From the NCBI GenBank assembly GCA_039640495.1, contig CP046864.1, positions 620,001 through 684,000 on the forward strand: a DNA stretch of 64,000 nt. The letters run 5' to 3'. The notes under the pieces were generated by a model. It saw nothing but the letters and a program-made list of their open reading frames with translations, was not told where the DNA came from and ran no database searches. A program made the position numbers and the translations under genes. The DNA comes from Rhodobacteraceae bacterium IMCC1335 (GTDB lineage Bacteria; Pseudomonadota; Alphaproteobacteria; Rhodobacterales; Rhodobacteraceae). Every line of letters starts with the position of its first letter. Positions within the stretch are counted from its first letter, which is position 1. Below are positions 37,090 to 40,061 of this stretch, one piece after another.

Positions 37090-37427
37090 CTTTTTGGAAT
37101 TCCTTGCAAGCATTTCGGTTGTTATGGTGATAGTGGTTTCGGCGCGCAGCGTCCAGAGCTGCGCTGGGCTTTCTTGCAAGGGCTTGATCGGGTATCTACT
37201 GGCTTTGCGCCTCAGGCCGTGGTTCCTTGCAAAGGCACGCAGAATCGCGACATGCAGCGCTGGGCCGGTTTGGCAAACTGTGGCATTCCTGCATCATATT
37301 GAAGCCGCTCTTGCCCGCTGCGCATGGCAAAGCTTGCAAAACACCCCCGAAACACGACATGAGGAATATATACGCTGCGCCGGCTATTGGCGTGGCTATG
37401 TAAGTTTTAACTTCGAGGAAAAAAAAG
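37090..37427. other. Intergenic region between leuS and the porin gene
   Basis: A 338-bp divergent gap holding the promoters of leuS and the porin. No tRNA, gene or clear -35/-10 pair could be supported; a TATATA at 37367-37372 is a possible porin -10. The porin ribosome site GAGG lies about 10 bases before its ATG. The DUF3576 gene that often neighbours leuS in this family is not visible here. Frames crossing the gap look non-coding. Confidence 0.4.
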
Positions 37428-38474
37428 ATGAAAAACATTCTTCTCGCGACTACAGCGATTGCGTTGACTGCAGGTTATGCAGCAGCGGAAATGTCAATCT
37501 CAGCTTCAGCTAAACTTGCCTATGGCAATTTTGGTGAAGAGTGGAAGGCAGGTAGTGCAAATAAATTAGGTGCAAACAAATCTGACCACACGCAAACCGG
37601 GGCGGGCGCTTCTGGTAAAGCGGGTGCTGGTTTTGCATGGTCTGAAACATTCGACGTAGTTGTTTCTGGTTCCGGCGAAGCTGGTGGAATCGCTTACACA
37701 GCTAGCATGACAATTGACGAAGATGCTGATTCAAATACTGTAGGCACAATGTCAATGTCTACTGGCGGATTCACCTTTGCCTATGGCGATGATGACTTCG
37801 ACGATCTGGTTGCTGATAACTCAAACGGTTTGGAAGAGGGCGCTGGCGACTATAAACTTTCATATTCTGCCAACGGTTTGTCAGCAAGTTATGAGGGCGA
37901 TCAAGCGTCAACTAACCCTTACTACGTGCGTGCAGGCTACACTGGCGCGGGCTTAACAGTCGGGTTGGAAACAGCCGACACAGACGGTAGTGGAGCAGGC
38001 TCAACAGTAAATACAGTGTCTGTTGGTTATACAATGGGCGCGATGTCAATTTCATACGACTCAGATGACAAAGCAACCACTGCTAACAATCCAGTGGGTA
38101 ACCACTACGATGCAAAAATCACCTATACAATGGGCGATACTGTTCTGTCAGCAGGTACAGACGAAGTAGAGTCACATTATGTTGGTTTGACAACGTCAGT
38201 AGCTGGCCTGTCTTTGACTTTGCGTAGTGAGCAAGACGGTAAGAAAAAAGCCGACGGTGTTACTCCGTATGCTACTGCCGAAAATGAGATTTCGGTGTCG
38301 TACACAATGGGCGCTTTGACCGTTGCTTATGCGAAAGACACTGGCGATGTAGGCAAATTCGGTGATGAAGCCGAAACGCTGACAACATTGACTTATGACT
38401 TGGGTGGCGTAACGCTGGTTGCCAAAGGCAACGACCAAGACGAAACAGAAGTTTCAGCAGCATTCTCATTCTAA
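37428..38474 (+). CDS. Outer-membrane porin (expressed copy)
   Basis: A 348-residue roseobacter-type porin. The Sec signal peptide KNILLATTAIALTAGYAAA ends at about residue 20. The mature part is a chain of alternating polar/aromatic beta strands with glycine-, serine- and acid-rich loops, and it ends VSAAFSF with the C-terminal Phe required for BAM insertion. Motifs such as SVGYTMGAMSISYDSD and SLTLRSEQDG fit the family. Likely an abundant general diffusion channel and potential phage receptor. Codon use is biased (ACA, TCA, GGC, GCT), typical of very highly expressed genes. A terminator follows. A second, defective copy lies 570 bp downstream with blocks of complete identity. Confidence 0.92.
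   Translation: MKNILLATTAIALTAGYAAAEMSISASAKLAYGNFGEEWKAGSANKLGANKSDHTQTGAGASGKAGAGFAWSETFDVVVSGSGEAGGIAYTASMTIDEDADSNTVGTMSMSTGGFTFAYGDDDFDDLVADNSNGLEEGAGDYKLSYSANGLSASYEGDQASTNPYYVRAGYTGAGLTVGLETADTDGSGAGSTVNTVSVGYTMGAMSISYDSDDKATTANNPVGNHYDAKITYTMGDTVLSAGTDEVESHYVGLTTSVAGLSLTLRSEQDGKKKADGVTPYATAENEISVSYTMGALTVAYAKDTGDVGKFGDEAETLTTLTYDLGGVTLVAKGNDQDETEVSAAFSF
37439..37489 (+). repeat. 5' identity block of the porin pair (expressed copy)
   Basis: 51 bases identical to 39044-39094, covering the signal-peptide codons from the end of codon 4 to the signal cleavage region. Identity stops abruptly at both ends. Confidence 0.9.
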
Positions 38475-38486
38475 GTTAAACAACTT
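38415..38486 (+). repeat. 3' identity block of the porin pair (expressed copy)
   Basis: 72 bases identical to 39951-40022, covering the last 19-20 codons, the stop codon and the start of the 3' untranslated region. After one mismatch the match resumes into the terminator stem. Confidence 0.9.
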
Positions 38487-38694
38487 AGTTTGGATGGAAA
38501 GAGCAGCCTTTGGGCTGCTCTTTTTTTGTTTGTGCAGACGCATTAGTGGCATCAAGTTCTACACAGAGCTTTGCTATACGCAGCTCACAGCCAGTAAGTT
38601 GTTTGTGCATAGCTCGCTGCTTTATAAGCCACTGTGCGTGCGCATATTCGCTGCGTAGCTGCTTGCGTAAAGCATGCAGTGAGAGTTTACGCAT
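38485..38694 (-). CDS. Small unknown protein coupled to the recombinase fragment
   Basis: A possible 69-residue basic protein (RKLSLHALRKQLRSEYAHAQWL...). Its ATG overlaps the stop of the recombinase fragment in the sequence TAATG, suggesting translational coupling. The last ~13 residues are read through the porin terminator, so the original 3' end was probably lost when the segment joined the porin 3' region. No family recognised. It may be only a relic. Confidence 0.3.
   Translation of the reverse strand: MRKLSLHALRKQLRSEYAHAQWLIKQRAMHKQLTGCELRIAKLCVELDATNASAQTKKEQPKGCSFHPN
38498..38527 (+). terminator. Terminator of the expressed porin gene
   Basis: Perfect 11-bp stem AAAGAGCAGCC / GGCTGCTCTTT with loop TTTG and a T-run. 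The same stem follows the second porin copy, where the loop reads CAAA, the exact reverse complement. Confidence 0.92.
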
Positions 38695-39043
38695 TAGACA
38701 AGCTCTACTGCTTGAGCTAACTGAGTATCATTAACATCAATATAGCGTTGAGTGACGGCTATACTGCTATCTCCTGCAAGCTCTGCAAGTACACGTACGC
38801 CTATGCCTTTGTCGGCAAGGCTTGTAATAAATGTACGCCAGAACTGATTAAGTGTGAGCTTCTCGCGCAATCGATTATGCTTTGAATTAGTAGGCTGCGT
38901 ACGCTTTATAAAGGACAACATCTCTTACTCCTGCATAGAATACGCAAGCAGTACTGTCATATGAACAGCTGGGCGACCGATAATACAGATATGCGGTCAT
39001 TGATGAGCATTGTTGCATAGTCTCTGACGTGAAAGATATATCA
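38524..39043. mobile_element. Foreign segment between the two porin copies (integrative-element remnant)
   Basis: About 520 bp lying exactly between the terminator of the first porin and the first base of identity of the second. It carries a degenerate tyrosine-recombinase C-terminus and a coupled small frame on the minus strand. Composition and codon use differ from the porins on either side (many GCTT, TACG and GCAT words). No clear terminal repeats were found. It may be a remnant of a phage or integrative element. Confidence 0.45.
38694..38921 (-). pseudogene. Tyrosine recombinase C-terminal fragment, catalytically degenerate
   Basis: 75 residues matching the end of a phage-type integrase: QFWRTFITSLADKGIGVRVL, ELAGDSSIAVTQRYIDVND. 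The nucleophilic tyrosine remains (RYIDV), but the HxxR motif reads NQFW, so both His and Arg are lost, and the second His (normally GHSS) is Asp (GDSS). The N-terminal and core-binding parts are missing. Yet an AGGAG ribosome site lies six bases before its ATG, so a short protein could still be made, perhaps DNA-binding only. More simply it is a decaying remnant of an integrative element. Confidence 0.65.
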
Positions 39044-39094
39044 TCTTCTCGCGACTACAGCGATTGCGTTGACTGCAGGTTATGCAGCAGCGGA
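39044..39094 (+). repeat. 5' identity block of the porin pair (silent copy)
   Basis: 51 bases identical to 37439-37489. The homology begins in the middle of the signal-peptide codons, so the start codon, ribosome site and promoter are absent from this copy. Confidence 0.9.
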
Positions 39095-40010
39095 CGTATC
39101 TTACAGCGCTTCAGCAAAATTGTCATATGGCAACTTTGGTGAGCAAAACACAGCAGGCGCTGCCTACGGCTACAGTGACACATTCGATTTCGTTGTAACT
39201 GGTTCAGGTGAAGCTGGCGGTGTTTCTTACTCAGCAAGCATGACAATTGACGAAAACACTGCAAGCTCAAGCGACGCAGGCGCAGCCAACGGCGGCGGAA
39301 GCAACTCTTTGGGCGCGTTCTCAATGAGCTCAAACGGCTTGTCATACACTTATGACGCGAATGACCTCGGTGGCTTGGAAACAGCCAACGGCAATGGTCT
39401 TGATGAAGCAGCGGGTGATTAGAAAATCGCTTATGCAGGAAATGGCTTCTCAGCAGGTTACGAAGTAGACGAAGATGTTGAAGGCCGCTATTTGACCACT
39501 TTGGGTTATAGCGCAAACGGAATTTCACTTGGTCTTGAAGTGAGTGATGACGACGGAGAGGACCCAACATTAGGTACTGTAAACACCGTTTCTCTTGGCT
39601 ATACAATGGGTGCAATCGGTATATCATATGATGTAGATGACCAAGACGATCAAGATTATGACGCCGAAGTGACCTATACAATAGGTGACACGGTATTGTC
39701 TGCTGGTACAGATGAATCCGAAAGCCACTATGCAGGCATCTCAACGTCCTTTGGCGGTCTGTCTTTGACAGCGCGTTCAGAAGCCGACGGATCTACTGCA
39801 TCAGGTGTGACAGGTGAAAACGAGCTTTCAGTGTCATACACAATGGGTGCTTTGACTGTTGCCTATGCGAAAGACACAGGTGACAACGGGTTGTTTGGTG
39901 ATGAAGCCGAAACGCTGACAACAATCACTTATGACTTGGGCGGTATCACACTGGTTGCCAAAGGCAACGACCAAGACGAAACAGAAGTTTCAGCAGCATT
40001 CTCATTCTAA
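39045..40010 (+). pseudogene. Second porin copy, without start codon and with an internal stop
   Basis: A porin reading frame running from the fifth codon of the signal peptide to the C-terminal VSAAFSF. It has no ATG, GTG or TTG in frame before the homology, no ribosome site, and the frame is closed upstream by TGA at 39030-39032. It also has one TAG at 39420-39422 where the expressed copy has a Tyr codon (GD-Y-K becomes GD-stop-K). Otherwise the frame is intact for 321 codons, with the strand-loop pattern of a working porin and loops that differ strongly from the first copy. It could be a decayed duplicate, or a silent cassette donating variable loops by gene conversion. Confidence 0.85.
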
Positions 40011-40022
40011 GTTAAACAACTT
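39951..40022 (+). repeat. 3' identity block of the porin pair (silent copy)
   Basis: 72 bases identical to 38415-38486, covering the end of the reading frame and the first bases after the stop codon. Confidence 0.9.
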
Positions 40023-40033
40023 GGTTTGGATGG

Positions 40034-40061
40034 AAAGAGCAGCCCAAAGGCTGCTCTTTTT
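40034..40061 (+). terminator. Terminator after the silent porin copy, loop inverted
   Basis: Stem AAAGAGCAGCC / GGCTGCTCTTT identical to that of the first porin, loop CAAA instead of TTTG, then a T-run. Beyond the T-run the two copies no longer match. Confidence 0.9.

Follow-up and report, generated by a model that had tools for sequence, protein, structure and literature searches.

A probable recombining two-slot porin locus with a start-less second allele in a CHAB-I-5 roseobacter

The stretch of DNA analysed here, referred to as the window, comprises 64,000 nucleotides (nt) of Rhodobacteraceae bacterium IMCC1335 (contig CP046864.1, positions 620,001 to 684,000), that is 64 kb out of a genome of 3,735,584 nt in one contig. 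The host genus is that of the CHAB-I-5 roseobacters. At 37428 to 40061 the window holds two copies of a porin gene, both on the plus strand, here called copy 1 (slot 1) and copy 2 (slot 2). The principal features are as follows.

37100..37427, plus strand: upstream region of slot 1, the interval between the presumed leuS gene and the porin; a promoter is presumed, with GAGG ahead of the ATG (from the sequence and a match in a metagenome-assembled genome, MAG)
37428..38474, plus strand: slot 1, intact porin of 348 amino acids (aa), allele type A (Porin_4 profile; FZCC0083 homologue)
37439..37489, plus strand: 5' shared block of 51 nt, signal-peptide codons, matching 39044-39094 of copy 2 perfectly
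38415..38486, plus strand: 3' shared block of 72 nt, end of the porin gene, matching 39951-40022 of copy 2 perfectly
38496..38525, plus strand: terminator-like hairpin behind slot 1 (hairpin 38498-38523), from a terminator scan; it would insulate slot 2
38697..38924, minus strand: truncated C-terminal fragment of a tyrosine recombinase, last 75-76 codons (PF00589)
39032..39044, plus strand: silent junction, where foreign sequence is joined to the 5' block (30-nt pattern search)
39044..40010, plus strand: slot 2, porin copy of allele type B without a start; in-frame TAG at 39420-39422
39951..40022, plus strand: 3' shared block of slot 2, a perfect match to the slot 1 block

Copy 1 matches Porin_4 (PF13609) with E 1.6e-5 and 25.3 bits, against a cut-off of 27, and the C-terminal part of copy 2 reaches 27.9 bits against the same cut-off; PF13609 is borne by many of the porin homologues listed. 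The isolate FZCC0083 encodes a protein 92% identical to copy 1. The porin has no NCBIfam match, and a profile search found no relative of it among solved structures. A hypervariable stretch lies at about residues 38-66 of the porin, where related alleles carry insertions of up to about 100 residues.

An initial annotation of the window proposed that the intact porin is followed, after 570 nt, by a second frame entering without a start at codon 5 of the signal peptide. Re-measurement bears this out. The block of copy 2 begins 570 nt past the stop codon of copy 1, the first in-frame codon of copy 2 corresponds to codon 5 of the signal peptide, and the frame upstream is closed by a TGA, with no ATG between this TGA and the block. 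The first possible start in copy 2 is a TTG at 39069, within the signal peptide. That annotation overlooked that the frame is not open: its single in-frame TAG (39420-39422) would cut the product short. The two perfect blocks around a divergent middle were likewise confirmed, the bodies of the two copies being 65.3% identical with 153 gap columns. The 51-nt perfect repeat is not a product of chance. Across four genomes of the genus (the window genome, two single-slot relatives read as strains SB2 and US3C007, and a Black Sea MAG), the 5' block is identical wherever aligned, and a 36-nt stretch of it is present in all four. Copy 2, presumably silent, has no start and has conserved ends around a variable body, as a silent cassette would.

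The absence of a promoter ahead of copy 2, also claimed initially, has become less certain, since the spacer contains a weak promoter-like match (38912-38941, plus strand); yet the region's promoter-like matches, five in number, are not above chance (mean 3.1, standard deviation 1.9). The hairpin behind copy 1 has the longest stem among the terminator-like sites of the region (8 found, 3.6 expected).

In 120 alignment columns conserved to 97% or more among proteins with a normal start, copy 2 shows no break once its stop codon is set aside. The counts of broken columns are 0 to 2 for the other start-less sequences, 1 for copy 1 and 13 for the SB2 porin. Ratios of non-synonymous to synonymous substitution (dN/dS) among the alleles are 0.20 to 0.30, and copy 2 is not set apart. 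The longest exact tracts between copies 1 and 2 are the 51- and 72-nt end blocks, which are common, whole or in part, to other strains. Beyond these blocks no tract is longer than 27 nt, and the window genome therefore shows no sign of recent conversion. A search of that genome at E 0.001 found no further silent porin copy, leaving this one only.

SB2 and US3C007, which share an average nucleotide identity of 98.7% (PMC12075776, in part), were each found to have one porin locus. The 1200-nt flanks of this locus are 98.9% and 98.6% identical between the two strains, compared with 69.1% for the porin bodies (180 gap columns), a pattern indicating en bloc exchange of the body between conserved ends. 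Because the bodies differ between two single-slot strains, allele replacement does not need a silent copy. Between species, in the comparison of US3C007 with the window, the 5' block is 100% identical and the bin of the 3' block 98%, whereas outward of the blocks the nearest five 50-nt bins on either side reach only 68-92%. The 30-nt pattern of the silent junction occurs in neither single-slot strain. A wider family search with a 15-row porin profile covered 394 genomes from the larger group, the two single-slot strains not being among those listed; matches at E 1e-15 were found in five genomes, and two slots in the window genome only.

The Black Sea MAG (contig JADHOV010000019.1) is classed as the same species as the window genome, and the 30-nt pattern occurs once in each of these two. 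The MAG contig with slot 2 starts with 12 nt of the silent junction, followed by the block. The slot-2 body of the MAG contains no stop codon and is 91.4% identical to window copy 1 (allele type A), as against 64.2% to window copy 2. Flanks of the MAG and the window are 99.0% identical over the 1200 nt up to the block and 97.6% identical downstream. As read from these contigs, the two strains, of one species, carry different allele types in the same silent slot. MAG contig C76 reads from the promoter side into the block and ends 43 nt inside it, the 5' block being a point at which assembly breaks (MAG contigs C43 and C76). The k values used in assembling the MAG ranged from 50 to 140 (PMC8067304, in part); at the larger of these a 51-nt block should not merge two paths, and a false join over 51 nt is therefore unlikely, though possible.

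Metagenomic porins were gathered in two protein searches (the best 120 of 300 and the best 120 of 341 matches), giving 167 different proteins. Together with five porins read from DNA these made 172 sequences, of which 145 have a normal start and 17 are start-less (two of them from DNA); the ten that were unclear were dropped, as was one more without the trimming motif, and 161 proteins were analysed. Start-less metagenome rows were not counted as slots, because assemblies break at the block. An identical run of at least 90 residues beside a 60-residue stretch of less than 65% identity was shared by 34 of 12,880 pairs, six of them with a start-less member. In a site-compatibility test, neighbouring sites proved more compatible than shuffled ones, whose values were as low in 30/2000 cases for 67 promoter-linked proteins, 72/2000 for 136 and 86/2000 for 153, which gives moderate support to recombination within the porin gene. 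Codon 4 served as a marker of the upstream lineage, being Val in 75/75 cases with one flank type and Ile in 7/7 with the other. On a thinned tree of 99 bodies, with 43 Val and 26 Ile rows, this marker changes 10 times, where clean sorting would take one change and 200 shuffles gave a mean of 21.1 and a minimum of 16; bodies have therefore moved from one lineage to another, but with some restriction. On the body tree the start-less rows lie dispersed, with 14 changes for 14 rows (shuffles 13.35).

The recombinase fragment in the spacer also escaped the initial annotation. It matches PF00589 with E 3.3e-5 and 24.2 bits, under the Pfam cut-off of 27.1, and aligns with four longer copies (188-194 aa) elsewhere in the genus, compared with which it has no N-terminal part. 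In another metagenome (P0168) the 75-aa fragment turns up again at 93%, in a cluster of 3 sequences whose contigs reach at most 2,974 nt, and the spacer is therefore probably common to other strains. Within the four genomes of the genus, the recombinase tail is the only part of the spacer with matches elsewhere (71-75%), and no other sign of the spacer's source was found there.

Together these results point to a single, highly recombining porin locus that was turned into a two-slot locus by an inserted unit, slot 2 being an occasional store of alleles and not a programmed bank. We give this reading a probability of roughly 0.6. The proposal of an antigenic-variation locus is then half right: a recombining two-slot porin locus is in place, and programmed variation is unproven. 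Porin bodies would be swapped between strains by general homologous recombination in the signal-peptide block and the conserved 3' end. In the species of the window, crossing-over within such a block would have added some 1.6 kb as one unit (block, porin, terminator, and spacer with recombinase remnant), giving the arrangement promoter-[block-A-terminator-spacer]-[block-B-terminator], with two slots as direct repeats. Slot 1 would keep the start and the native upstream region, and slot 2, lacking both, would lie behind a terminator. A crossover in the 5' block would leave the newcomer expressed and the old allele silent, as the window appears to be arranged; insertion of the same unit through the 3' end would silence type A, matching the MAG. 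The single-slot state could be restored by loop-out between the repeats. The order of these events, and selection by phage attack, are likewise put forward as suggestions.

Several points weigh against this account. The unit could instead have come from a tandem duplication followed by an insertion. In the MAG, the sequence of the upstream slot breaks off within the block and the reciprocal arrangement was not seen; the contig carrying slot 2 opens just 12 nt ahead of the block, and the remaining spacer was not found in the MAG. Among the listed porin matches, the start-less alleles (15/167) may be genes cut at contig ends. The mosaic and tree results rest on metagenome protein predictions that are partly redundant, part of the mosaic signal could be mimicked by unequal rates in loops and strands, and the significance of the site-compatibility test is just moderate. 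The set that supplied the 120 conserved columns was rich in copy-2-like alleles, and the clean score of copy 2 is for this reason weaker evidence than it looks.

Among the alternatives, slot 2 might be an ordinary duplicate in decay, of tandem or integrated origin, that has lost its start region and is on the way out. The in-frame TAG, the want of any start before the TTG inside the signal peptide, promoter-like matches at chance level and the adjoining recombinase remnant would all suit such a copy. The initial annotation, which offered this as the plain alternative, held that it would follow if relatives carried two intact tandem porins and no mosaic alleles occurred at any frequency. Neither single-slot relative has a tandem pair, so that no old pair is seen, and mosaic alleles do occur. 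Decay also fits poorly with a copy that, stop aside, breaks no conserved position, with a silent slot holding different allele types in two strains, and with a recombinase fragment recurring at 93% elsewhere, by which the arrangement seems not brand new; we regard it as improbable. A true silent donor, from which regular non-reciprocal conversion into slot 1 would change the loops as in Anaplasma msp2/p44 or Brucella omp2, is a shade more doubtful still. The missing start, the common ends and divergent middle, the varying content of slot 2 between strains, the lack of decay at conserved positions and the scatter of start-less alleles over the body tree are all as a donor would have them, and block exchange of bodies, mosaic alleles and differing slot-2 content uphold part of the original proposal. 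Its central step, donation from slot 2 to slot 1, was not supported: no conversion tract was seen in the window genome, both single-slot strains (2/2) show body replacement with no second copy found, the only copy available bears a stop codon, and the scattered start-less rows may be artefacts of contig edges.

The presence of a recombinase remnant inside a unit with exact direct repeats at its ends could also suggest site-specific integration, with the signal-peptide block as attachment site, the 51-nt repeats as attL/attR and the expressed porin swapped in the process. The fragment, however, has no N-terminal part, and no porin was found in the genomic stretches that hold the other small recombinases. 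The block is moreover identical in strains without the insertion, and any incoming porin copy would therefore bring it along. A phage- or plasmid-borne porin was sought with copy 1 (tblastn, E 1e-3), and 50,697 phage and 72,556 plasmid records gave no match. Among IMG/VR viral contigs, no porin relative was confirmed in 18 candidate stretches, and 49 nt of the block had no exact counterpart. Integration of this kind is accordingly very unlikely. An assembly artefact in the window genome is hardly credible: the block is a place where assemblies break, as in the two MAG contigs, but the genome is one contig and an independent MAG has the same silent junction.

Silent-copy surface switching is known mainly from pathogens under immune attack; in Neisseria pilE/pilS and Treponema TprK, for example, silent cassettes accompany one expression site. 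TprK reportedly has 53 donor cassettes (PMC10063172, in part). Both pilS and TprK are multi-copy donor banks, in contrast to the one silent copy here. By analogy, the nearest precedent for the two-slot locus appears to be the Brucella omp2a/omp2b pair, and the nearest design the functional pseudogenes of Anaplasma msp2/p44. The omp2 genes are linked alphaproteobacterial porin copies, as here, about 830 bp apart, with only one shown to be expressed, conversion between them, and differences in surface loops (PMC7050475, in part). In omp2 the copies run in opposite directions and are 82-100% alike (PMC7050475, in part), whereas here they are in tandem, both on the plus strand, and 65% alike; the present copy 2 also has no start, the spacer contains a recombinase remnant, conversion was not seen and expression is read from sequence. 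Anaplasma has about 100 silent copies of msp2/p44 (7-8 in A. marginale), with variation during single infections (PMC11946796, in part). The likeness lies in partial silent copies whose 5' and 3' ends are conserved around a variable middle, the break points in Anaplasma falling in the conserved ends (PMC11946796, in part); the present case differs in having one silent copy in a free-living bacterium, with no switching observed. In Klebsiella OmpK36, divergent porin backbones arose in part by recombination, and phage infection changes with the loops; the available part of that report mentions no silent second slot (PMC12421954). Phage selection of porin loops is thus documented in Klebsiella (PMC12421954, in part), and it may act in the CHAB-I-5 lineage. 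Two CHAB-I-5 papers do not use the word 'porin' at all, and no report of a two-slot porin locus in a free-living marine bacterium was found among the open-licence papers listed.

Found in a lineage that is marine, free-living and abundant, a two-slot porin locus would, if true, point to phage attack as a sufficient cause of such an arrangement. It is conceivable, if doubtful, that the locus works as a reversible allele switch in an abundant ocean bacterium, in which recombination between the 51- or 72-nt repeats, or conversion between slots, would change surface loops and allow evasion of phages. As a single-locus target, it should make allele turnover between strains more than 98% identical traceable in metagenomes and in culture, and phages have already been isolated on the CHAB-I-5 lineage.

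Two further features belong to the locus.

38488..38694, minus strand: small open reading frame (ORF) of 69 aa, whose start overlaps the stop of the recombinase fragment
40034..40059, plus strand: hairpin behind slot 2, with the same stem as the slot 1 hairpin and an inverted loop, outside the terminator scan's list

The loop is TTTG behind one slot and its reverse complement, CAAA, behind the other, the stem being identical; it is TTTG in SB2 and the MAG and TATG in US3C007. The neighbours of the porin are presumably leuS, on the minus strand, and a gene encoding a YggS-like protein. Numerous metagenome records extend the slot-1 porin about 100 aa too far upstream (37100-37430), which gives 413-aa proteins, and this extension is antisense to the presumed leuS start.

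The recombinase fragment is flanked by an imperfect inverted repeat of 21 nt (81%; 38659-38679 and 38931-38951). A ribosome-site-like sequence stands ahead of its ATG, and its stop codon contains the start of the following ORF; judging by this layout the fragment may still be translated. Plasmid records gave three weak matches to it (39-49% identity). Among the 394 genomes, the 69-aa ORF matched, besides itself, only within the window genome, where a distantly related ORF adjoins another small recombinase. Three stretches of that genome (L013, L014 and L050), near 2.68 and 2.75 Mb, contain large and small tyrosine recombinases, unknown genes and, by eye only, genes looking like toxin-antitoxin parts; one of the three holds the distant relative of the spacer's small ORF.

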